Assembly (NCBI GenBank): GCA_958295905.1
Contig: OY282382.1
Location: 4,446,910 to 4,510,909 of the forward strand
Direction: 5' to 3'
DNA: 64,000 bases
DNA from: an uncultured Vicinamibacterales bacterium
Lineage (GTDB): Bacteria; Acidobacteriota; Vicinamibacteria; Vicinamibacterales; UBA8438
The notes under the pieces were generated by a model. That model was not told the DNA's origin. It was given only the letters and a program-made list of their open reading frames with translations, and searched no databases. This document shows, one piece after another, positions 20,962-62,158 of the stretch. How positions within the stretch are numbered: position 1 is the stretch's first letter; every line of letters begins with the position of its first letter. The position numbers were made by a program, and so were the translations under genes.

Positions 20962-21237
20962 TGGGGGAATGGCTCCTGCGTGATCTTCGCGACACCGCCC
21001 GGAAACTGCGGGTGCATCCGAGTGTCACGCTTGCCACCGTGACCCTGCTTGCTGTCGGCATCGGCGCAACACGACGACTTTTGGCCTCGTTAGCGCGCTC
21101 CTCGCCCAGCGATTGCCTTACCCTGAATCGGAGTCCATCGTGACTGTGGGGCAAGTGTCCAGGTGGCGTGCTGGATCGGCCATTGACGGGCACCAAGTTC
21201 CGACGCTTGCTGGGCGAGGCGCGGTCTTTGAGCACCT
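20961..21237 (+). pseudogene. ADOP/MacB-type permease, N-terminal fragment, frameshifted
   Basis: The ATG overlaps the preceding TGA. The sequence MGEWLLRDLRDTARKLRVHP and VTLLAVGIGA matches the cytoplasmic start and first membrane helix of acidobacterial ADOP permeases. After one frameshift near 21068 it continues TTFGLVSALLAQRLPYPESE, again the family pattern. It is cut off at the end of the IS1182-type remnant (21238). Several hundred residues are missing. Confidence 0.65.
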
Positions 21238-22118
21238 AGGAGTCTGCGCCGCAGGAAGGTCGCGGAACCCCGGTGGCTTGCGTCGTGACGCACGGCGTCA
21301 AGGTGTCTTCCGCGGTCGACGAGCAGGTGATTTTCGACCAGCCGGCGGCGTGAACCGAAACAGACCGTACACCCCTCCAAACGCCGCGATTCGCACCCGA
21401 TTCTCGGTCGGTGGGGGCAGGATCCACCCCGTTACGCCGCCATCAGCGCGTGCAGGCGCTTGGCGTTCCCGCCAGGCACACCAAGTCCCACTCGCCCCGC
21501 ACCTGCGCCAGGCCGCGCAGGCTGAAGCGCCGGAAGCCCAGCACGTGCTTGACCCAGCCATACGGCACCTCCGACAACCACTTCCGCTCCGCATACACCG
21601 CCCGCCCCGCCGGCGTCGACAGCTTCTCCACCATCCACCCCGTCGCCGGATGCTTCTCCAGATCGCGGCCGGCGACCCCCTTGTCCTCCCGGCCCGCCGC
21701 CACATAACCGTCAACACCCCGCGTTTCCAGGTCCGCCAAATCCCGCTCGTTGCAGTACCCCGCGTCGGCCAGCACCGTCTCCGGCTGCGTCTCGAACGTC
21801 TCCCGCACCTGGTCGAGCAACACCGGCAGCCCCCCCTAGTCGCTCGCGTTCGCCGTCACATCCGTCGCCACCAACAACTGGTGCTCGGCGTCCACCGCCG
21901 TCTGCGCGTTGTAGCACTGCTGGAAGCCCTCGCCGCCCGTCTTCATGATCCCGCTTGGTGCGCCAAGTGACCCTCGGGCAGCCACTCCCGCACATCGGGC
22001 GGCAACAACAGCGACTGCTCGGGCACGTAGGGGCGAAACGTGGTCGACATCAAGCTCCCTCTCGTCGTCGGCTTGTCTACAATTGTCGCATCGATTTTCT
22101 GTGGCGCAGACTCCTAGG
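21238..22118 (-). mobile_element. IS1182-type element remnant with inverted ends
   Basis: The ends are AGGAGTCTGCGCCGCAG at 21239 and, inwards from 22118, AGGAGTCTGCGCCACAG. They flank an internally deleted transposase on the minus strand. The same terminal sequence occurs in the dispersed palindromic repeats of this window (for example 26662, 46986 and 56517), so this element is a likely source of them. Confidence 0.65.
21432..22050 (-). pseudogene. IS1182-family transposase, internally deleted
   Basis: The ATG at 22050 opens MSTTFRPYVPEQSLLLPPDV and WLPEGHLAHQ, the IS1182 N-terminus. It then jumps to GIMKTGGEGFQQCYNAQTAV, skipping about 200-300 residues. A stop and frameshift near 21838 precede the C-terminal part (ETVLADAGYCNERDLADLE, YAERKWLSEVPYGWVKHVLG). 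It ends with NAKRLHALMAA. Dead gene. Confidence 0.8.
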
Positions 22119-22211
22119 TCTAGCCGTCTAGCCGCCGTCCTCGATGCCCGACCCGGGCCGGGTCGGCGCCGCCCTCGACGAGGCGGTAGCGGCGGGAAGG
22201 GACGGCCGGGG

Positions 22212-22229
22212 CGTGATACCGTGTGGGGC
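22212..22229 (+). promoter_or_regulatory. Conserved motif ahead of the coiled-coil gene
   Basis: CGTGATACCGTGTGGGGC directly precedes the ATG. The core CGTGATACCGT recurs at the same place ahead of the related genes at 50778 and 59772. It may be a -10 region of a very short leader or a binding site. Confidence 0.5.
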
Positions 22230-22547
22230 ATGGACGCCATCACACCGTGGCTCACGCCGGCTATCGTCATCGCCGTGTTCGCGTGGCTGCGGGCGGATAT
22301 CCGCGGCCTCAAGACCGACATCGACAAGCGCATTGACGGCCTCGACGCGCGCCTCACCGGCCGCATTGACGGCCTCGACGCGCGGATCGACAACGCCGTC
22401 CGGGAACTGCGAACCGACATCGCAGCCGTCAACACGCGGATCGACAACGCCGTCCGGGAACTGCGGACCGACATCGCGGGCGTGCACACGCGGATCGACG
22501 CCGTACTGTTGGCCGACCGCGACAAACGGGACCGGGGCGCCGCCTGA
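22230..22547 (+). CDS. Membrane-anchored coiled-coil protein, MDAxTPWLTP family (copy A)
   Basis: A 105-residue protein: a short N-terminal membrane helix (MDAITPWLTPAIVIAVFAWL) followed by about 75 residues of repeats of the type RIDxxVRELRTDIAxVxT, predicted as a continuous coiled coil, and a charged tail ADRDKRDRGAA. Two related intact genes lie at 50778 and 59410, differing in repeat number. The stop overlaps the start of a second small frame (TGATG). The family is not recognised; a membrane-bound oligomer is an inference. Confidence 0.7.
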   Translation: MDAITPWLTPAIVIAVFAWLRADIRGLKTDIDKRIDGLDARLTGRIDGLDARIDNAVRELRTDIAAVNTRIDNAVRELRTDIAGVHTRIDAVLLADRDKRDRGAA

Positions 22548-22675
22548 TGGACGCCTTCACGACCGACATCGCAGCCGTCAACAAGCGCGTCGACTGACTC
22601 GCGGCGGAAGTCGCCGGGCTGCGTGAACGGATAGCGAAGCTCGAAGGCGCACTCGACGGCTTCATGGCCGGCTAG
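22547..22675 (+). pseudogene. Second coiled-coil frame, interrupted by a stop
   Basis: Overlapping the previous stop, MDAFTTDIAAVNKRVD is followed by TGA and then in frame LAAEVAGLRERIAKLEGALD and GFMAG with a stop. A TGG to TGA change would explain it. The tail looks like a typical short coiled coil. The same TGATG arrangement follows the copy at 50778. Confidence 0.5.
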
Positions 22676-23421: not shown

Positions 23422-24474
23422 GCGGGCCGGCGGCCAGGGCGCCTTCGACAGCCAGGGCCCGAGGCGGTCCGCGTAGGCGAAGATGGCCGGCAGGCCGCCG
23501 GTATGGAGGAAGAGCACCCGGCTGCCGGCGGCGATGCGCCCCGAGCGCACGTGGGCGATGAGGCCCGCCATCGCCTTGCCGGTGTAGACGGGGTCGAGGA
23601 GCAACGCCTCGTGCCGCGCCGCCATCTCCAGCGCCTCGCGCACCGCGTCGTTGAGCCGGCCGTAGCCCGGTGCGAGCACCGCGTCGGAGACATCGACGTC
23701 GCCCTCGTCGAACGCCGACGGGCGCTCGATCATCGCGGCCAGCGCCGCCGCCGCGCCCGCCACCCGCGCGCCCTGCCGGCGCGCGTCGCGCCGCACGCAG
23801 ATGCCGCGCACCGGCATCGTCCCGCCGACGGCCCGCAACCCGACGAGGACGCCCGCGTGGGTGGCCGCGCTGCCCGAGGCGCAGACCACCGCGTCGAACC
23901 CGACGCCGAGGGCCGCGGCCTGCGTCACGATCTCGTCGGCGGCCAGGACGTAGCCGAGCCCGCCGAGCGGCGGGCGCCCCGGGGCGGAGTGAATCACGTA
24001 GGGCCGGCGGCCCTCGCCGGCGAGCGCCCGGGCGAGACGCTCGAGCGCGGCGTCCGCCGCGGCCTCGTCCTCGCCGACGGGAAACGAATGGAGGGTCGCG
24101 CCGAGCAACCGGTCCACCAGCAGGTTGCCCGAGTCGCGGTAGAGGTCGCCGGCCTCGTCTACGCGCTCTTCGAGCTGGATGTGCGCGTCCATCCCGAGCC
24201 GGCGCGCGCCGGCGGCGGCGACGCGGACGAGGTTCGACTGCACCGCCCCGGTGACCAGCACCGTGTCGGCGCCGCGGGCCTGCGCCGCCCCGAGATGGAA
24301 CTCGAGCTGGCGCACCTTGTTGCCGCCCAGCGCCAGCCCCGTGCAGTCGTCGCGCTTGACCCACAGCTCGACGCCGAGGGCGGCGCCGAGGCGCGGGGCG
24401 GCGTCGAGAGGCGTGGGCGCGTGGCCGAGCCGGACTCTCGCGAAACGGTCTACCGCGGCAAGCGGGCTGGACAT
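23419..24474 (-). CDS. D-cysteine desulfhydrase / ACC deaminase family PLP enzyme
   Basis: A 351-residue fold-type II PLP enzyme. LWVKRDDCTGLALGGNKVRQ contains the PLP-binding Lys; VTGAVQSNLVRVAAAGARRL and VCASGSAATHAGVLVGLRA (phosphate-binding Gly-rich loop) follow, and LFLHTGGLPAIFAY lies near the end. The family removes sulphide or ammonia from D-cysteine or 1-aminocyclopropane-1-carboxylate; D-cysteine desulfhydrase is the more common annotation for this sequence type. The ATG at 24474 matches the family start (RFARVRLGHAPTPL); an upstream ATG at 24534 adds only low-complexity sequence. It stands alone. Confidence 0.85.
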   Translation of the reverse strand: MSSPLAAVDRFARVRLGHAPTPLDAAPRLGAALGVELWVKRDDCTGLALGGNKVRQLEFHLGAAQARGADTVLVTGAVQSNLVRVAAAGARRLGMDAHIQLEERVDEAGDLYRDSGNLLVDRLLGATLHSFPVGEDEAAADAALERLARALAGEGRRPYVIHSAPGRPPLGGLGYVLAADEIVTQAAALGVGFDAVVCASGSAATHAGVLVGLRAVGGTMPVRGICVRRDARRQGARVAGAAAALAAMIERPSAFDEGDVDVSDAVLAPGYGRLNDAVREALEMAARHEALLLDPVYTGKAMAGLIAHVRSGRIAAGSRVLFLHTGGLPAIFAYADRLGPWLSKAPWPPAR

Positions 24475-24600
24475 ACGCCGGCGGGCTCGGCTGGACTCGC
24501 GCGTCAGGCGCTCTATCGGGCGGCGCACGGGCATTCAGGAATGCGGCGTCCCCGTGCGTGAACGGCAGTCAGCAGGAGGCGGTGCCACCTGCCGCCACAT

Positions 24601-24911
24601 CCTGAACGAGGTCGACGGCTACCCGGCTACCCTCCGCGCATGTAATGAGCAGCAGGGGGCGGTGACGCCTGCCCAAGGGCATCCCACGCTGACTGCGCGT
24701 GACGGCCTCGCCCCCGATCGCCACCGTCTTGCCGACCGGCCGGCGCCACGTGAGACCCACGATTCCGCACGTCCGGAGCCCCAGGACCCGCCACGATGCC
24801 GCCTGCGCACGGCGGTGGCGGAGCGTGGGATGGTCCTGCCTGGACGAGGTCGACGGCTACCCGACTACCCTCCGCGCGTGTTATGAGCAGCAGGGCGCGG
24901 TGACGCCTGCC
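24601..24911. repeat. 72-bp direct repeats flanking a miniature element
   Basis: A segment with GAGGTCGACGGCTACCCG and ATGAGCAGCAGGG occurs at 24601-24672 and again at 24839-24911 with a handful of differences. The miniature element at 24679-24833 lies between them. No gene is seen here. Confidence 0.7.
24679..24833 (-). repeat. Miniature inverted-repeat element (copy A)
   Basis: About 155 bp with ends GCATCCCACGCTGAC and, read inwards, CCATCCCACGCTCCGCC. The interior (CGGCCGGTCGGCAAGACGG on the minus strand) is shared with copies at 31016, 32379 and 43866. It encodes no protein, so it would need a transposase in trans. Confidence 0.75.
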
Positions 24912-30826: not shown

Positions 30827-31015
30827 CATCGCCCTCGCAGGCCGAATATTCTAGCAGCCCGAAGGTCCAATGACATGCGGCACCCCAACGACGAAACGAC
30901 GAGCCGCCGGCGCCCCCCAATCTCTCACTTCCATCGTCCTCCGGGCGCACGCGGGCCGCTGCTCGGACCGGTTCGCCGGCAGCACCGAGAGCGATCCCGC
31001 CCGCCACGGCCAAGG

Positions 31016-31178
31016 CCATCCCACGTTCCGCCACCGCCGTGCGCAGTCAGAATCGTGGCGGGTCTTGGGACTCCGGATGTGCGGAATCGTGGGTCTCACG
31101 CGGCGCCGGCCGGTCGGCAAGACGGTGGCGACCCCTCGAATCGGGGGCGAGCCGTCACGCGCAGTCAGCGTGGGATGC
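31016..31178 (+). repeat. Miniature inverted-repeat element (copy B)
   Basis: About 163 bp, ends CCATCCCACGTTCCGCC and (inwards) GCATCCCACGCTGACTGCGC. The interior carries GGTCTCACGCGGCGCCGGCC and CCCCTCGAATCGGGG, a small hairpin. It has the opposite orientation to copy A. Confidence 0.75.
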
Positions 31179-31553
31179 TCCTGCCGCCACGGCACGGCCT
31201 CCTTGACCAGACTGCACCGGCTGCCATCCATGCGCACAACAGGGTCGGCCACGTGCAGGTCGAGCCAGCCCGAACTCTCGCCCCGCGGCACCGACACAAG
31301 ACGCACGGCTCGGGCTCGCCGCCGGGACGGAACCGTCTCCCGGCCACGCACGCCCGCAGCCGCCGCTACCCGTCGGGTCACGCGGCAGGACCGCCCCCGC
31401 CCACACCAGGGCCGGCGCCGACACCACGAGGCCCGTCAGCCCGGCGAAGCCAATCCACTCCAAGTGGGCGTCGATCTGGGGGTCGCGTTTCGGCATCCGC
31501 CACGTCGGCGCGGTCGAGCAGCAGACTGGTCGCCGGCCCGCGTGGCCAGCCGC
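31179..31553. other. No gene seen
   Basis: The 375 bp between the miniature element and the NYN remnant hold only shadow frames. Confidence 0.45.
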
Positions 31554-32233
31554 TCACCGCCACGATTCCCTCCGGGCATCGCTGGCGCTGCGGGCTACAA
31601 CGGACGCATCGTAACAGTCGGCGAACCACGACGCCGCGCGGATTCGTATGAACGAGTTCACCGCGGCGGCGAGCCGGGCTCCGGACGATGCCGAGACCGC
31701 GTACACTTTCTTTCCGCGCGAGCGGACGTGCTCGACCGCCGGCGTGAAGTCACCATCGGCCGAGAGCAGGTAGGCGTCGTCGAAGCCATCGCGTTCGGCC
31801 AGGACCACCAAGTCCACGGCGAGCATTACGTCGACGGCCTTCTCCACAAGAACGGTGGTCTTCTGGTCCCGTTGCGCCAGCCTCATCAGGTCCTGAAATA
31901 CCCTGAGATCGATCTTCGTTCCCAGATTGGAGAGATAGGATCGCAAATTGCGCGCGATCTGATTTGTAACCGCTCGCGGTTCCAGCCGGCCGAGGTGGGC
32001 GCTGATACGCGGCTCAGCCTCGAGCTTCGCGAGAAAGCGACGCTGGCCGGTGTAGAGCGTGACATCCCCGCTCTGGGGCACGCGGCCGATGTAGTACCGC
32101 GTGCCGATCCACCGCCGCGGCCCGACCAGCTTCAGAGAGAGTCTTCGGTAGTCGAGTCGACCAAGGTCGACCGACCCTTGAGGCCATGGTACCAGTTGTT
32201 GCCGTCGATGAAGAGCGTCGCCCGAGGTGCCAT
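31554..32233 (-). pseudogene. NYN-domain ribonuclease-like protein, frameshifted
   Basis: An ATG at 32233 opens MAPRATLFIDGNNWYHGLKG, the start of a NYN (LabA/DUF88) domain with its first conserved Asp. Near 32165 the frame must shift by one base to continue LGRLDYRRLSLKLVGPRRWI, then VEKAVDVMLAVDLVVLAERD and DDAYLLSADGDFTPAVEHVR, which hold the other acidic residues. The full product would be about 225 residues, normal for the family. NYN proteins are metal-dependent nucleases. One frameshift could be a sequencing error. A hairpin terminator lies 12 bp ahead of the start. Confidence 0.75.
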
Positions 32234-32243
32234 CGCGCGGACA

Positions 32244-32321
32244 GAAAAAAACCCCGGCGTGTGGTGCGCGAGACACCAGACCCCGGGGGGGTGAAGCCCG
32301 ACTCCCTTGGGAGCCGACTCT
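32244..32321 (-). terminator. Hairpin pair with a T-run ahead of the NYN gene
   Basis: On the minus strand a first hairpin (GGCTCCC and GGGAGTC, 32297-32318) is followed by a larger one (CCCCGG, CTGGTG, CACCA, CCGGGG) and then seven Ts at 32245-32251. The T-run ends 12 bp before the NYN start codon. It is either the terminator of an upstream transcript, for which no gene is visible, or an attenuator in the leader. Confidence 0.6.
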
Positions 32322-32378
32322 CGAAGCCTAGCGCGCCAACCGACAGCGTGTCAATGGGTCACCGTATCCCCGCCAGGA

Positions 32379-32541
32379 CCATCCCACGCTCCGACACCGC
32401 CGTGCACAGGCGGAATCGTGGCGGGTCCTGGGGTTCCGGACGTGCGGCATCGTGGGTCTCACGCGGCGCCGGCCGGTCGGCAAGACGGTGGCGACCCCTC
32501 GAATCGGTGGCGGGCCGTCACGCGCAGTCAGTGTGGGATGC
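32379..32541 (+). repeat. Miniature inverted-repeat element (copy C)
   Basis: About 163 bp, same orientation as copy B, ends CCATCCCACGCTCCGAC and (inwards) GCATCCCACACTGACTGCGC. The flanking bases also look palindromic (GCCAGGA and CCAGGGG), which may extend the terminal repeat to about 17 bp. Confidence 0.75.
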
Positions 32542-32596
32542 CCCTGGTATCCTCGACAGGCTCGACACCACGCTCGACGCCGACGAACAGTCTCGC

Positions 32597-33130
32597 TCAG
32601 TTCGTCTCCTGCCACAGTAGACGAGTCCGACCGGCTCCACGCGCTTCGCCTGCACCTCGTAGAACGCTCGGATGCGCCCCGGCTCCCGGCCCAAGTCGCG
32701 GTCGAATTGGTCGAAGCAGGTGCGCCAGTAACGCATGTTCGATTGGAGCTGACACCCGTTCGTCCTGGTCGAAGTCGAGCACGATCTGCGAGTACTGGCC
32801 CGCGTGGCGGTCGAGCTCGTCGACGACGCGCTCGCGCTGGCGCCGGAACATCTCTTCGAGGTCGCGCGCCTCCCGCTCGCCCCGCTCGCCCCGGCGGCGC
32901 GGCGCCAGCTCGGCGATCTCCTCGGCCCGCGGCTCGATTGGTCGCAGCAGCTCCTCGACATCGCCGCGGCGCGGTCGCCAACAGCTTGGTCCGGATGACG
33001 TCGTGCGGCATCCAGTCCGAACGCCGGACCAGCGACTGAATCGAGCAAGTCGAGGGTGCGCGTCTCGACCTTGCGGGCGTAGGCCCCTCGCCCAGGCAAG
33101 GACTCGATTCCCCGCGTTGTCCTCCTCGGA
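32597..33130 (-). pseudogene. SNF2-type helicase, C-terminal fragment (DISARM DrmD-like), frameshifted
   Basis: The pieces ARKVETRTLDLLDS, WMPHDVIRTKLLATAPRR, ELLRPIEPRAEEIAELAPRR, HAGQYSQIVLDFDQDER, QSNMRYWRTCFDQFDRDLGR, RIRAFYEVQAKRVEPVGLVY and LWQETN with a stop follow one another in three frames. They resemble the C-terminal region of large SNF2-like helicases of the DrmD type used in DISARM phage defence; that name is from memory and needs a search. At least three frameshifts and a missing ATPase core make it dead. It lies beside the NYN remnant. Confidence 0.5.
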
Positions 33131-33247
33131 AGGCTCTGCCTTCATGGACGTCGGGCCGGGCGGCTGCACAAGAGCTCGTCCCCCTGGCCGCCCGATGGGT
33201 CGAGCCGGGGCGGTGGACGCCCTTCAGGGTGGTAAAATCACCGCACC

Positions 33248-33778
33248 ATGAGAGTTGTCCCGCGAGTGCTGATCGTCGTCGGATGCCTGCTGCTGATCCC
33301 GCTGACCGCCGTCGTCACCGCCGCTGTGAAACAGCGCTTCGCCGACGGCCCGAACCGGCTGTTCTCGGGCGGCCCCCTCGTGTCGGGCGAGTTGCACGCC
33401 GGACCCGAACCGGACTGGAGCTTCGTCGAGGACATCCCCACCATCGAGCTGCAACTGCTCGACCCGCCGCGGTCCCGCCGCATCTGGACCACGGAGTACG
33501 ACGGCAAGCTGTACGTCTGGTCCGGCTACATGGGCACGACGGTGGGCCGGCTCTGGAAGCGCTGGCCGATACAGGCGGAGCGGGACGGCCGCGCGGTGCT
33601 CCGCATCGGCGGCAAGCGCTACGAGCGGCAGCTCGTGCGCATCGAGTCGGGCGAGGTCCTCGACGGCGTCAGCAGCGCCATCCGGGACAAGTACCCGTCT
33701 CAGGTCACCCGGGCCGCGGTCGAAGCCGGCGACTCCTGGGTGTTCGAGGCGGCGCCGCGCCAGGACTCTGCGCCGTAG
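33248..33778 (+). CDS. Membrane-anchored protein with a FMN-oxidase-like region, unknown function
   Basis: A 176-residue protein with an N-terminal helix (VLIVVGCLLLIPLTAVVTAA) and a soluble domain containing RIWTTEYDGKLYVWSGYMG and RLWKRWPIQAERDGRAVLRI. The second part recalls the split-barrel flavin-binding and DUF2255-like proteins, but weakly. The stop codon TAG at 33776 lies inside the dispersed palindromic repeat, so the last residues (QDSAP) are encoded by the repeat. The gene is alone on this strand segment. Confidence 0.65.
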   Translation: MRVVPRVLIVVGCLLLIPLTAVVTAAVKQRFADGPNRLFSGGPLVSGELHAGPEPDWSFVEDIPTIELQLLDPPRSRRIWTTEYDGKLYVWSGYMGTTVGRLWKRWPIQAERDGRAVLRIGGKRYERQLVRIESGEVLDGVSSAIRDKYPSQVTRAAVEAGDSWVFEAAPRQDSAP

Positions 33779-48300: not shown

Positions 48301-48312
48301 GACGGGCCACTG

Positions 48313-50733
48313 CTAGCACTCAATCACAGTTGACACCGGCAGAGGTTCCGTGTAGAACGGATGCATGCGAATTGGTCTGCGGGTTTTGCAGCCGGAGACG
48401 GTGGAGTGGTTGCGCGGGGCGTTGGGGGACGGGGAACTGTCGCGGTCTGCGCTGGGGCGTGAGCTGTGCGAGCGGGACGGGTGGCGCAACCCGCGGGGGG
48501 CGTTGTGCACGGCCTCGGCGCGCAAGGCGCTGCCGGAGCTGGCGGCGGGGTTGGGGTTGGGGCTGCCGCCCGCGCAATCGGGTCCGCCGCGTCGTGGTTG
48601 CGATCCGTCGGCGTGCGGGTCGCGGTTGCCGCTGACGGAATTCTGCGGCAGCTTGTCGTCGTTGGGGGCGGTCGATGTTCGGGTGGCGGAAACGGCGGCG
48701 GAGGGCCGGTTGTGCGGTCATCTGCTGGCGGCGTGCCATCCGCGGGGTCGTGGGCGGGCGCCGGGGTGCCGTCTGACGTATGTGCTGGAAGCGTCGTCGG
48801 GGGTGCTGGGCGTTCTGAGCTTCGTGTCGGCGCCGATGCGGTTGGGGCCCCGCGACGCGCATCTGGGTTGGGACGACCGCACGCGGGGGTTTCACATCGG
48901 GGAGGTGGTTTCCAACGACCGTTTTCTGCTGTTGCCCGGGGTTCGGGTGCCGCACTTGGCCTCGCACGTGTTGGGGCGGGCGGTGAGTTGTCTGGCGTCG
49001 GACTGGGAAGCGCGGCACGGGGTTCGGCCGGTGTTGGTGGAGACGTGCGTGGAGGCGTCCCGTCCGGCGACGAGCTACCGGGCGGCGGGCTGGCGGTGCG
49101 TGGGCCGGACGTCGGGTTTGCCGCCGGGGGCGTCGGCGCCGGTGGCGCCGAAGGGGGTGTGGCTTCGGGGTCTGGCCTCGGATTGGGCGGAGACGTTGCG
49201 TCGGCCGCCGTCGCGGGCGCCGGGGTCGTTTCCGGCGCTTGATGCGGCAGACGAGTCGGGTTGGGCGTGGCGCGAGTTCGGGCGGTCGGACATGGCCGAC
49301 GGGCGTTTGCGGTCGCGTCTGGTGCGGTTGGGGTCGGCGTGGGCGCGGCATCCGGGGGAGCCGCTGCCGGCGGTTTTCCCGGGCAGTGCCGAGCAACAGG
49401 CGGTGTATCGTTTCCTGCACAATAAGAAGGTGGCCGGCGAGGACATCCTGCAACCGCATCGGGAGGCGCTGGTGGAGCGCTGCCGGCCGGAGTCGGCGGT
49501 ACTGCTGGTGCAGGACACGACGACGTTGAACTACACCGGTCTGCGGGAGAGCACGGCGGGGTTGGGACCGCTTCGGGAGCGGACGGGCAGCGCGCGGGGT
49601 CTGTTCGTGCATGCGGCGGTGGTGTTCACCGAGGGGCGGCGGGCGTTGGGGGTGAGCGGGCTGGAGACGTGGGCGCGGCCGGAAGCGGAACCGGCGGCGG
49701 AACTTGAGAAGGAGAGTCGGCGCTGGTTCCGGGGCTTCGATCAGGGCCGGGCGTTGGGGCGGGCGAGTCCCGGGACGCGGGTGGTGGTGGTCGGGGACCG
49801 GGAGAGCGACATTTACGGGCTGTTGAAGTGGCAGGCGGCGCATGCGGACGAGGCGGGGCTGGTGGTGCGGGCGAACGCGGGCCGGCGGCGGCGGGTGGAG
49901 GTGTGGGACCCGGAGTTGCGGGCGACGATGCTGCGGACGCTGGCGTCGCAGCCGGACTTCGAGACGCCGGTCAAGACGGGTCGGGCGGTACGGATCGGCG
50001 CGCAGGGCGGGAAGCGGGCGCGGTCACAACGGACGGCGGAGACCGAGCTGAGCATCGGGCGGGTGGAACTGCAGCCGCCGCAGGACCGACTCGGGGACGG
50101 TCCGGTGGCGGCGTGGCTGGTGCGCGTTCTGGAGACCGAGCCGCCGGCGGGGAAGGAACCGTTGGAGTGGCTGCTGTTGTCGAGCGAGGGGGGGCCGACG
50201 GCGGAATGGGCGGAACGTATCGTGGGCTGGTATGAGGCCCGCTGGGGGATCGAAGAGTATTTCCGGGTCCTCAAGAGCGGGACGCGGATCGAAGACCGGC
50301 GGCTGCAGGATGCCGACGCGCTGGTCAAGTGCCTGGCGTTCGACGCCGTCACGGCATGGCGGGTGTGCAACCTGGACCGCTACGCGCGGGACGCGCCGGA
50401 AACACCGGCCGGGGAGGTGCTGACCGAGGACGAGCGGCAGGTGATCGGCGCCGTGGTGCGGGCCGAACGGCTGCAGCCGCCGTCCGAGCGTGGGAAGCCG
50501 TTTCCGCCCGACATCCGCGGTTGGGTGGTGCTGCTGGCGCGCATGGCCGGCTGGCACCCCTCGAAACGAAGCCCGTTGCCCGGCAACCAAGTCATGTGGC
50601 GGGCATGCGTCCAGTTGCAGACGATGGTGCGCGCCATCCAAGCCGCGCGCGCACCGTAGCCCCCTGGACAGTCGCTTGGTGTTGGCTGGGCAGCCCGCAT
50701 GCCGGAACCTGTGTCAACTGTGACCCCATGCTA
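48313..50733 (+). mobile_element. Tn5/IS50-type insertion sequence with DruA-domain transposase, complete
   Basis: The terminal repeats contain TCACAGTTGACAC(C/A)GG (48324-48339 and, inverted, 50708-50723), and the outermost CTAGCA is also inverted. GGGCCACTG occurs directly before 48313 and again at 50734-50742, a 9-bp target duplication, the size expected for this group. The element is about 2.42 kb with a single intact gene. It sits just upstream of the coiled-coil gene at 50778. Confidence 0.85.
48365..50659 (+). CDS. Tn5-type DDE transposase fused to a DUF4338 (DruA-like) domain
   Basis: A 764-residue protein, intact. Residues about 60-290 form a DUF4338/DruA-like domain (RLCGHLLAACHPRGRGRAPG, LTYVLEASSGVLGVLSFVSA, LGWDDRTRGFHIGEVVSNDR, SHVLGRAVSCLASDWEARHG). 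Residues about 300-760 are an IS4/Tn5 transposase: AVYRFLHNKKV, LLVQDTTTLNYTGLR (Asp), VVGDRESDIYGL (Asp) and WYEARWGIEEYFRVLKSGTR (Glu, in the YREK signature). DruA is also a component of the Druantia phage-defence system; here it is part of a transposase, as in many IS elements. The role of the fused domain in transposition is unknown. Confidence 0.88.
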   Translation: MRIGLRVLQPETVEWLRGALGDGELSRSALGRELCERDGWRNPRGALCTASARKALPELAAGLGLGLPPAQSGPPRRGCDPSACGSRLPLTEFCGSLSSLGAVDVRVAETAAEGRLCGHLLAACHPRGRGRAPGCRLTYVLEASSGVLGVLSFVSAPMRLGPRDAHLGWDDRTRGFHIGEVVSNDRFLLLPGVRVPHLASHVLGRAVSCLASDWEARHGVRPVLVETCVEASRPATSYRAAGWRCVGRTSGLPPGASAPVAPKGVWLRGLASDWAETLRRPPSRAPGSFPALDAADESGWAWREFGRSDMADGRLRSRLVRLGSAWARHPGEPLPAVFPGSAEQQAVYRFLHNKKVAGEDILQPHREALVERCRPESAVLLVQDTTTLNYTGLRESTAGLGPLRERTGSARGLFVHAAVVFTEGRRALGVSGLETWARPEAEPAAELEKESRRWFRGFDQGRALGRASPGTRVVVVGDRESDIYGLLKWQAAHADEAGLVVRANAGRRRRVEVWDPELRATMLRTLASQPDFETPVKTGRAVRIGAQGGKRARSQRTAETELSIGRVELQPPQDRLGDGPVAAWLVRVLETEPPAGKEPLEWLLLSSEGGPTAEWAERIVGWYEARWGIEEYFRVLKSGTRIEDRRLQDADALVKCLAFDAVTAWRVCNLDRYARDAPETPAGEVLTEDERQVIGAVVRAERLQPPSERGKPFPPDIRGWVVLLARMAGWHPSKRSPLPGNQVMWRACVQLQTMVRAIQAARAP

Positions 50734-50758
50734 GGGCCACTGGCTGACCCGGACGGAC

Positions 50759-50777
50759 CGTGATACCGTGGCGGGAT
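50759..50777 (+). promoter_or_regulatory. Conserved motif ahead of the coiled-coil gene
   Basis: CGTGATACCGTGGCGGGAT directly precedes the ATG and shares CGTGATACCGT with 22212 and 59790. The Tn5-type insertion ends only about 25 bp upstream without touching it. Confidence 0.5.
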
Positions 50778-51068
50778 ATGGACGCCATCACACCGTGGCT
50801 CACGCCCGCCCTCGTCGTCGCCGTGTACACCGCGCTGCGCGTCGACATCCGCGGGGTCAACACGCGCATCGACATCGCGGTCCGGGAACTGCGGACCGAC
50901 ATCGCGGCCGTGAACACCCGCATCGACGGCGTGAACGCCTCCGTGAACGCCCGCATCGACAACGCGGTCCGGGAGTTGCGGACCGACATCGCCGGCGTTC
51001 ACGCGCGGATCGACGCCGTGCTGCTGGCCGACCGCGACCGCAACCGGCAGAGCCGGGGGGCGGCCTGA
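50778..51068 (+). CDS. Membrane-anchored coiled-coil protein, MDAxTPWLTP family (copy B)
   Basis: A 96-residue relative of the proteins at 22230 and 59410: MDAITPWLTPALVVAVYTAL forms the helix, then repeats such as RIDIAVRELRTDIAAVNT and RIDNAVRELRTDIAGVHA, and a tail ADRDRNRQSRGAA. It has fewer repeats than copy A. The stop overlaps the start of a second frame (TGATG). Confidence 0.7.
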   Translation: MDAITPWLTPALVVAVYTALRVDIRGVNTRIDIAVRELRTDIAAVNTRIDGVNASVNARIDNAVRELRTDIAGVHARIDAVLLADRDRNRQSRGAA

Positions 51069-59340: not shown

Positions 59341-59409
59341 GCGGCTGGTGAGACGCTTGTCGATGTCGTCCGGGCGTTCAGCCGCACGTCGAGGTGTCGA
59401 TCCGGGCGT
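59341..59409 (-). pseudogene. Second coiled-coil frame, remnant
   Basis: Directly after the copy C gene the minus strand reads NARIDTSTCG and, in another frame, DDIDKRLTSRLDGPAK. This is in keeping with a decayed second member of the coiled-coil pair, as found after copies A and B. Confidence 0.35.
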
Positions 59410-59772
59410 TCAGGCGGCGCCCCGGTCCCGCTTGTCGCGGTCCGCGAGCAACACGTTGTCGATGCGCGTGTGCACGCCGGCGATGTCGGTCCGCAGTTCC
59501 CGGACGGCACCGTCGATCCGCGTGTTCAAGTCCCGGACGGCGCTGTCGATGCGGGCGCCGAGCCGTGCGTCGAGGGCGTCGATGCGGGCGCCGAGGTTCG
59601 CGTCGAGGCTGTCGATGCGGGCGCCGAGCCGCGCGTCGAGGCTGTCGATGCGCTTGCCGACGCCGTCGATGCGCTTGTCGATGTCGGTCTTGAGGCCGCG
59701 GATGTCAGCCCGCAGCCACGCGAACACGGCGATGATGAGGGCCGGCGTGAGCCACGGTGTGACGGCGTCCAT
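59410..59772 (-). CDS. Membrane-anchored coiled-coil protein, MDAxTPWLTP family (copy C)
   Basis: A 120-residue protein, the longest of three: helix MDAVTPWLTPALIIAVFAWL, then RADIRGLKTDIDKRIDG, several 11-residue units (RIDSLDARLGA, RIDSLDANLGA, RIDALDARLGA), then VRELRTDIAGVHTRI and the tail ADRDKRDRGAA identical to copy A. The 11-residue periodicity suggests a right-handed or straight coiled coil. Repeat number differs between copies, as expected from slippage or recombination. Confidence 0.7.
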   Translation of the reverse strand: MDAVTPWLTPALIIAVFAWLRADIRGLKTDIDKRIDGVGKRIDSLDARLGARIDSLDANLGARIDALDARLGARIDSAVRDLNTRIDGAVRELRTDIAGVHTRIDNVLLADRDKRDRGAA

Positions 59773-59790
59773 GCCGGTACGGTATCACGC
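59773..59790 (-). promoter_or_regulatory. Conserved motif ahead of the coiled-coil gene
   Basis: On the minus strand GCGTGATACCGTACCGGC directly precedes the ATG at 59772, sharing CGTGATACCGT with the two other copies. Confidence 0.5.
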
Positions 59791-60706: not shown

Positions 60707-62020
60707 TTAGGAATCTCGCCAAAATAAATCAACCGTTAACGTCAGTTCGAGGTAGCAAGCTGTAGTTCCACTCGCCATGAAATGCGTCCCGTTTGATGGA
60801 CAGCCTCCCCATCTGTTCGTCGGTGACTTCACGACCGGTTGGATAGTTGGCTTCGTCCAGCGCCGACCGGATGGCCAAGCCGCCTTGCGTAGTCGTGCCG
60901 CCGATCAGGTTCACCACCACCTCGTGACTCACCAGCGGACGGCCCCGCCAATTCTCCGTAATGTGACAGAACATCCGGTGCTCGATCTTGTTCCACTTGC
61001 TCGTGCCCGGCGGGAAGTGGCACACCGAAATCCGCAACCCGAGCGCGTCGGCCAGCTTCTGCAACTCGAACTTCCAGAGCCGACTGCGGCTGCTGTTGGA
61101 ACCGCCGCCGTCGGCCGTGAGCAGCAACCGCGTGGCCGCCGGATAGGCGTGACGCCCCATTTGCAGCCACCAGCGCCGAACCGTCTCCACCGCGAACTCC
61201 GACGTGTCGTGGTCAACGCCGACGCTTACCCAGCCCGTGTTGGACGTCAGGTCGTAGACCCCGTAGGGGATCGCCTTGCCGAGCTCCCGATCGATGAAGT
61301 CATGGACCTTCACCTCCGCCGGCTGACCCTTCGGGCGCCATTCCCGGCCGCCGTTGCGGTATCGGCCGACCAACTCCTTCTTCTTCGTGTCGATCGAAGC
61401 CACCGGCTGGCCCAGGCGTTGAAACGCCCGCACGCGCCGCGCGATGCGCCGGAATTGCGCGTCCCGGTCCGGATGTTGCCGGCCTTCGAGCGTCTTGCGG
61501 TTGGCCTGCAGGCTATAGCCCAACTCGTGCAGCAGCCGGTTCACCGTGCGCTCGCTGACCCGATGTCCTTCAGCCCCCAATTGCTCCGCCAAGCGCGCCG
61601 CGCTGCTGCATGTCCAGCGCAGCGGCCCCTGGGGGTCGCCCCGGGTGAACGGGTCGAGCAGATACTCCAACGCCTTCACGAGACCCGGATCGCGATCCGC
61701 CAGCGCCTTGCGACCCCCGCCCGGGGCGCGCACCCGCGCAACGCCCGCCTGCGGCGCCGGCGGCGTGGCCGAATCCAGTTCCCTCACGCCTGCCCGGACC
61801 GTGCCGCGCGACATCCCGGTCGCCTCTGCGACCCGTGTGATTCCCCCGCGTCCCATGGCGCGGGCTTCCGCCGCCGCCCACAAGCGTCGAGTGCGCTCGT
61901 CCAACAGCGGCGCCAACACGTTGTACTTTCCTTGCACCGCTTGTGTCACGGCGTTCATGACACCGGAGCATAGCAGACTGGCCGCCAAAAAGAACAAATT
62001 ATTTTGGCGGGATTCCTTAA
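60707..62020 (-). mobile_element. ISAzo13-family insertion sequence, complete
   Basis: The ends are TTAGGAATCTCGCCAAAATA at 60707 and, inwards from 62020, TTAAGGAATCCCGCCAAAAT. They flank one intact transposase gene. No clear target duplication was seen. 60430-60706 to its left has no gene. Confidence 0.8.
60729..61958 (-). CDS. ISAzo13-family transposase
   Basis: A 409-residue transposase, full length for the family. The N-terminus has MNAVTQAVQGKYNVLAPLLD and a helix-turn-helix (GGITRVAEATGMSRGTVRAG). The catalytic part has VASIDTKKKELVGRYRNGGR (Asp), LLLTADGGGSNSSRSRLWKF (Asp) and CHFPPGTSKWNKIEHRMFC (Glu). The ATG at 61958 is the natural start because the terminal repeat begins 62 bp upstream. 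No frameshift is present. Confidence 0.9.
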   Translation of the reverse strand: MNAVTQAVQGKYNVLAPLLDERTRRLWAAAEARAMGRGGITRVAEATGMSRGTVRAGVRELDSATPPAPQAGVARVRAPGGGRKALADRDPGLVKALEYLLDPFTRGDPQGPLRWTCSSAARLAEQLGAEGHRVSERTVNRLLHELGYSLQANRKTLEGRQHPDRDAQFRRIARRVRAFQRLGQPVASIDTKKKELVGRYRNGGREWRPKGQPAEVKVHDFIDRELGKAIPYGVYDLTSNTGWVSVGVDHDTSEFAVETVRRWWLQMGRHAYPAATRLLLTADGGGSNSSRSRLWKFELQKLADALGLRISVCHFPPGTSKWNKIEHRMFCHITENWRGRPLVSHEVVVNLIGGTTTQGGLAIRSALDEANYPTGREVTDEQMGRLSIKRDAFHGEWNYSLLPRTDVNG

Positions 62021-62158
62021 TCAAACCGCGATCCCTGCCGGCGCCGGCCCGGCAGGATGCGAAGAACCGGTCCGGCGCGGTCGTCGATACCGCGATCACG
62101 GGGAACGCCTCAGCGGGTGGACGCGCCGCGGCCAAGCCGCGGTCGTGGTGCCGTCACC

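Follow-up and report, generated by a model that had tools for sequence, protein, structure and literature searches.

Results

The window, i.e., the whole stretch of 64,000 nucleotides analyzed here (C1:4446910-4510909 of a 6.3-Mb, 3-contig genome), contains three intact copies of a small gene, referred to here as gene B, whose products have a common N-terminus, MDA[IV]TPWLTP, and a common tail, DIAGVH[TA]RID[AN]VLLADRD...RGAA. Copy 1 (22230..22547, + strand) encodes 105 amino acids with an N-terminal anchor and a coiled coil, copy 2 (50778..51068, + strand) encodes 96 and copy 3 (59410..59772, - strand) 120 amino acids. The original prediction that a single protein type is encoded at 22230, 50778 and 59410(-) was borne out, as all three reading frames are intact and their ends are near-identical, with a variable coil in between. 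A decayed relative had also been proposed 3' of every copy, with a TGATG overlap at two of them; a broken frame or remnant of this second gene (gene C) was indeed found at 3/3 copies. At copy 1, gene C (22547..22675, + strand) overlaps gene B through TGATG and is decayed by a deletion of the anchor and an in-frame TGA. At copy 2 (51068..about 51220, + strand), it shows the same overlap, a frameshift and a truncation, and has 89% similarity to a third unit at C1:3733993. At copy 3, 36 bases of gene C are left (59350..59385, - strand), without an overlap with gene B. A 3' remnant of a further small gene (gene A; 22123..22213, + strand), with a broken frame, precedes copy 1 and starts just outside the end of an insertion sequence (IS) relic.

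As had been claimed, each copy lies next to mobile DNA, i.e., an IS relic with a broken DDE transposase and 24-nt inverted repeats (21234..22119, - strand; inserted in the gene A region) at copy 1, an IS (48313..50734, + strand) at copy 2 and an ISAZ013-type transposase (60732..62135, - strand) approx. 1 kb from copy 3. The last base of the relic at copy 1 is 22119, and from 22123, a position inside gene A, the sequence resembles the intact unit. The IS at copy 2, located 24 bases from the promoter of that copy, has 27-nt inverted repeats (78% complementary) and a transposase with a DruA-like N part, and is flanked by the 8-bp target duplication GGCCACTG (48305-48312 and 50735-50742). Because the element at copy 1 cuts the remains of gene A, and the element at copy 2 has its own repeats and duplication, these insertion sequences came to the genes, and the mobile DNA beside the copies thus landed, for the most part, later. 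Overall, as read from the sequence, gene B is kept three times in the window, genes A and C have decayed and insertion sequences have entered. The transposase frame at copy 2 (48365-50656) combines the DruA-like N-terminal part (PF14236, E 7.6e-14) with Tnp_DNA_bind and a weak DDE match. The window also contains a dispersed, intergenic-looking repeat (24143-24883, 30854-32294 and 32331-33314), which recurs at other sites of the genome (L067:5568-5748 and L073:6631-6800) with approx. 84% identity between two loci.

A conserved motif in front of the ATG, acting as a common expression signal, had been part of the original prediction. We found exact matches to this motif, CGTGATACCGT, only three times in the window, precisely at the starts of the three B genes and separated from the ATG by 7, 8 and 6 nt in copies 1, 2 and 3, respectively. 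In each case the motif falls in a putative extended -10 element, TGATACCGT, located at 22212..22222 (+ strand; 7 nt before the ATG), 50759..50769 (+ strand; 8 nt) and 59779..59789 (- strand; 6 nt). The pattern TGATACCGTN{3,12}ATGGA occurs at 7 sites genome-wide, all of them at family loci, as compared to 0 sites for the reversed control. We also assessed 30 hand-chosen family members, with starts assigned by protein signature. Of these 30 members, 17 have the strict element TGNTANNNT 5-9 nt upstream of the start (mean of 0.036 and maximum of 2 in shuffled upstream regions), and 13 lack it at this distance. The shorter TANNNT was present 5-9 nt before the start in 21/30 members, and in 3/3 window copies (shuffle mean 0.66, maximum 4); Shine-Dalgarno-like bases were seen upstream of 2/30 members. 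Among the variants (TGATACCGT, TGCTACGCT, TGATACGGT, TGTTACGCT and others), the free positions differ and the TG, TA and T positions are constant. The common signal is thus best read as a predicted extended -10 promoter, TGNTANNNT, at leaderless distance. As a -10 element ending 6-8 nt before the ATG is expected to start transcription at the ATG or 1-2 bases upstream, we infer that the family genes are probably transcribed as leaderless mRNAs. Deinococcus has leaderless mRNAs driven by TANNNT approx. 6-7 bp upstream of open reading frames (PMC12340547), and leaderless mRNAs are also described in M. tuberculosis, where a TGN extension marks or raises promoter strength (PMC3898074).

The same promoter geometry was found before 31 open frames of at least 50 amino acids in 301,646 bases of the genome, a sample mostly picked for holding such genes, so that these numbers give no genome-wide rate. 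By a simple rule, 19 of these 31 frames encode membrane-coil proteins, and three more fall just outside the rule (the second window copy, the first gene of the tandem array described below and the truncated third unit at C1:3733993). We also observed TGNTANNNT 8-10 nt before the start of unrelated frames in the window, at 33248, 40347(-), 6573(-) and 61958(-), and leaderless promoters may therefore be general in this genome.

A protein search of the whole genome yielded 27 matches at E<=0.01, many by coil similarity only. Intact genes of the window type (tail VLLADR..RGAA) number six, i.e., the three window copies and those at C1:3733305, C1:5846857 and C1:4081276. Intact two-gene units, for which a search had been proposed, do exist, as TGATG-coupled B-C pairs at C1:3733305 and C1:5846857, where gene C encodes 93 and 115 amino acids, respectively. 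The products of B and C differ mainly in the tail, and that of C, LRERMAKLEGSLDGFMAGWRGRDRDAA, is the tail of the wider family; judged by these sequences, B and C are tandem paralogues. Gene A (approx. 98 amino acids where complete) lies upstream of B and precedes both intact B-C pairs. Contig C2 and C1:5846546 carry intact versions, C1:3733083 has a truncated one and copy 1 retains a relic; the stop codon of A at C1:5846546 is provided by the TGA within the promoter TGATACCGT. Searches of 31 and of 297 genomes (17 candidates scored per genome in the latter) matched gene A in one genome each, its own. We considered whether gene A belongs to a known system and rejected this possibility after searches for family, plasmid and viral matches returned none. 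An all-against-all comparison of flanks from 32 sources showed, among the matches listed, no neighbour gene that travels with the family. By eye, the recurring flank genes among these matches encode TonB-type receptors, DUF1592/DUF1552 or PQQ-type proteins, or belong to orthologous loci, and some family loci have common neighbours across genomes. On contig C2 (147 kb), which may be a plasmid, a MobA/MobL relaxase gene immediately precedes an intact A and a broken B (G000:C2; L069:7513-9705(-)).

Homologues outside this genome had been proposed as a check, and a profile of seven short members matched 12/28 genomes of the same family at E<=1e-6, so the proteins are not confined to their own genome. 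At this threshold, the genome of the window had 22 matches and related genomes had no more than 18; the number per genome rises with genome size (Spearman 0.70, p 3e-5; 28 genomes, relatedness not corrected). At the order level, 11/162 genomes matched at E<=1e-8, all within the family. At least 6/396 genomes of a phylum-wide sample matched query A2, a lower bound since 13 candidates were scored per genome; four of these belong to another family (f35), in which 4/4 genomes examined match. The f35 members, which are distant homologues, form tandem arrays of up to four genes and carry GAGG-type Shine-Dalgarno bases instead of the leaderless promoter, which is thus not universal. An array of four such genes, with Shine-Dalgarno-like bases and gaps of 16 nt, occurs at L170:1449-2573 (G362:C15), within the phylum but outside the family to which the window belongs. 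Among named genomes, seven loci in Microbacterium and assorted metagenome bins showed coil-only similarity. Phage records, plasmid records and viral contigs contained no family match, and we rejected the possibility that the coil proteins come from phages or viruses, as the phage and viral searches gave no matches. A search of the literature on coiled-coil and leaderless families found, among the entries listed, nothing on this family. Among 25 intact coding sequences (40 listed pairs), dN/dS was mostly 0.09-0.35 (highest 0.62), which argues that the wider family is under purifying selection. Among the six B genes themselves, dN/dS ranged from 0.18 to 0.80; these higher values may represent weaker constraint or alignment noise in the repeats, and some B copies may be drifting.

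The original prediction of a mobile two-gene cassette fared unevenly; the two-gene unit stands, given the intact pairs, but its mobility is not supported, as we found no unit ends. One alternative interpretation is nevertheless that A, B and C form a mobile or selfish cassette that spreads and decays without a function for the cell. B-type sites are dispersed in one genome, with six intact and more as fragments, and one lies beside the C2 relaxase and one B-C pair approx. 0.8 kb from an integrase fragment; this interpretation would also fit the restriction of gene A to its own genome and the rise of copy number with genome size. However, DNA similarity between the two intact units begins in gene A and ends at the stop codon of C, no terminal repeats or target duplications were recognised at the unit ends when these units were compared, and the sole target duplication observed is that of the IS at copy 2, not of the unit. 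Insertion sequences cut into the unit, the wider family shows purifying selection and, at some loci, neighbours common to several genomes, and phages, plasmids and viral contigs yielded no match. Overall, we consider a mobile or selfish cassette rather unlikely; the C2 relaxase and the integrase fragment leave room for plasmid-borne movement of units.

The N-terminal 13-15 residues of the proteins are hydrophobic. The N-terminal flank of this stretch is net negative in 37/42 members and its C-terminal flank has a mean of 3.8 K/R; together with the positive-inside rule, these charges suggest an N-out/C-in topology. As a stretch of this length is short for spanning a membrane, an in-plane anchor is possible. 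AlphaFold2 predicted one helix for the window proteins (residues 8-119; mean pLDDT 91.9, pTM 0.49), a single-chain model and thus uninformative on oligomers. The C-terminal tail is conserved as strongly as the anchor. None of the window proteins matched a Pfam or NCBIfam family above cut-off, and their PHROGs matches were weak.

The hydrophobic period of the rod is 3.62-3.64, nearer to that of hendecads (11/3) than to 7/2, and hydrophobic positions form a narrow stripe of approx. two per heptad or three per hendecad. The rod could, instead of a coiled coil, be an amphipathic helix lying on a lipid surface, as in apolipoproteins, a possibility prompted by the 11-residue periodicity and by a weak similarity to PF01442 (E 2e-8 to 0.005). 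The stripe is as narrow as in coiled coils, however, and the best PF01442 score among the proteins scanned was 34.5 bits, below the cut-off of 90 bits; we thus regard a lipid-surface helix as very unlikely.

Similarly improbable is the interpretation that these are small membrane-active proteins of a holin or toxin-antitoxin kind, expressed from leaderless mRNAs under stress. Small size, the N-terminal hydrophobic stretch and the many copies near mobile DNA would fit this interpretation, as would a parallel with M. tuberculosis, where leaderless transcripts dominate toxin-antitoxin pairs (PMC3898074). On the other hand, no PADLOC, Pfam, PHROGs or NCBIfam family supports a toxin; A, B and C had no match among anti-phage defence and toxin-antitoxin components (PADLOC; weak coil matches only in Pfam). 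The partner genes are mutually paralogous rather than encoding an antitoxin, and a tail conserved as well as the anchor also argues against this role.

Of 42 intact members, 36 end in AA, 4 in VA, 1 in TA and 1 in AT, and the final residue is thus Ala in 41/42; an AA end was found in 4/143 other called open reading frames. Residue -3 varies (D, G, N, T, S or E), and the two Ala are encoded by varying synonymous codons. This AA end is a constant feature of the PWLTP families but is not seen in the MAADSKT and MSTDTK families. We retain as a side hypothesis that the two terminal Ala could direct degradation by ClpXP, by analogy with the ssrA degron, whose main element is C-terminal Ala-Ala (PMC7652416). 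The tmRNA tag of this genome is ANDTQLALAA, and the Leu before its Ala-Ala is missing in the family.

We also considered whether these could be chance or repeat-driven open frames without a protein function, given that repetitive GC-rich DNA easily stays open and that the A and C copies in the window are broken. This is extremely unlikely in light of the dN/dS values well below 1 between genomes, the promoter enrichment (17 as compared to 0.036) and the AA end retained in 36/42 members despite varying synonymous codons.

Rod length varies by steps in several anchor families. The genome carries a tandem array of five genes at approx. C1:1361662-1363797 (L183:1663-3798), with a different anchor, MAADSKTLAGWLPGHDARW, and products of 90, 111, 104, 90 and 97 amino acids, in this order. 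Their last 23 residues are identical, near-identical promoters, GTGCTAT(G/T)AT, lie six nt before the ATG, and four of the five proteins differ mainly by whole RMDDL(N/S)(G/S) heptads. Proteins of the MSTDTKAIIGT type have 101 and 108 amino acids in tandem and 115 elsewhere, and those of the MPE subfamily 102, 113 and 124, i.e., steps of 11. In two sister genomes (G001 and G002), genes of the MAADSKT type are arranged in tandem as pairs or triplets, with lengths that do not all follow whole heptads (90 and 114 amino acids; 104 and 107 amino acids plus a third frame of 145 codons whose end is altered). Further proteins have the same tail behind other anchors, e.g., MSGTATIVVSIVG...RERMAKLEGSLEGFLAGRRDRDAA. 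As replication slippage alone would also yield whole-unit steps, such steps are not in themselves proof that length is under selection.

Discussion

We propose that the three genes in the window represent gene B of a lineage-restricted, multi-copy A-B-C family that would encode membrane-anchored coiled-coil rods, expressed from leaderless promoters and co-assembling as spacers or scaffolds, an interpretation to which we assign a probability of about one half. In the proposed mechanism, CGTGATACCGT, as part of an extended -10 element, would start transcription at the ATG or no more than two bases away, yielding a leaderless mRNA, and gene C would be coupled to B through TGATG. The hydrophobic N-terminus of 13-15 residues would insert in the inner membrane, a coiled-coil rod of 7- and 11-residue units would extend in the cytoplasm with the conserved tail docking at its far end, and paralogues would co-assemble as membrane-tethered spacers or scaffolds. 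The family itself, the geometry and enrichment of its promoter, purifying selection, the unit structure, decay and IS insertion can be read directly from the sequences; oligomerisation and co-assembly of paralogues are probable. A spacer or scaffold role is suggested because, among paralogues, both ends are fixed and rod length changes by whole units; as the compared loci revealed no partner or conserved neighbour, the scaffold role is proposed from the anatomy of the proteins.

A more specific extension is that paralogues act as length-graded rulers. The PWLTP, MSGT, MAADSKT and MSTDTK anchor families would have a common architecture and a common type of leaderless promoter, and their tandem paralogues would have rods that differ in length by whole units of 7 or 11 residues, such that membrane-tethered coiled-coil spacers would hold their tails at stepped distances from the membrane, with the AA end allowing ClpXP to turn over PWLTP rods. 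We consider this ruler function unlikely and put it forward as speculation.

Overall, this is a real family with an ordinary but informative promoter and an unusual step-wise variation in rod length. It has no Pfam entry and is expanded in the largest related genomes, to approx. 20 matches each. It offers an unusually clean case of coiled-coil rods that grow by whole repeats between near-identical ends and, if paralogues co-assemble, a natural series for testing how rod length relates to the position of the tail relative to the membrane. In addition, the promoter finding suggests that this lineage may have many leaderless genes with an extended -10 element, with consequences for gene calling in its genomes.

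Compared to known systems, these genes resemble the leaderless genes of Deinococcus-Thermus and mycobacteria (PMC12340547, PMC3898074) in that TANNNT lies approx. 6-8 nt before the start and Shine-Dalgarno sequences are few, whereas the elements here are mostly of the extended form TGNTANNNT, recur before one protein architecture and precede predicted transcription starts. The proteins are similar to CCDC90-like proteins/MCUR1 (PF07798) as membrane-anchored helical coiled coils with weak profile similarity; scores of 21.4, 17.4 and 13.8 bits fall below the curated cut-off of 33.5. The anchor of CCDC90 proteins is C-terminal, whereas the anchor here is N-terminal. With the apolipoprotein A1/A4/E domain (PF01442), the proteins share 11-residue helical repeats and differ by their narrow hydrophobic stripe. 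Hendecad coiled-coil families described by the Lupas group reportedly grow by repeat amplification. The proteins reported here share with these families the 11-residue periodicity and the step-wise growth of the rod, but appear to differ in their fixed N-terminal anchor, their conserved C-terminal tail, their arrangement in tandem paralogue arrays and their predicted leaderless promoters.
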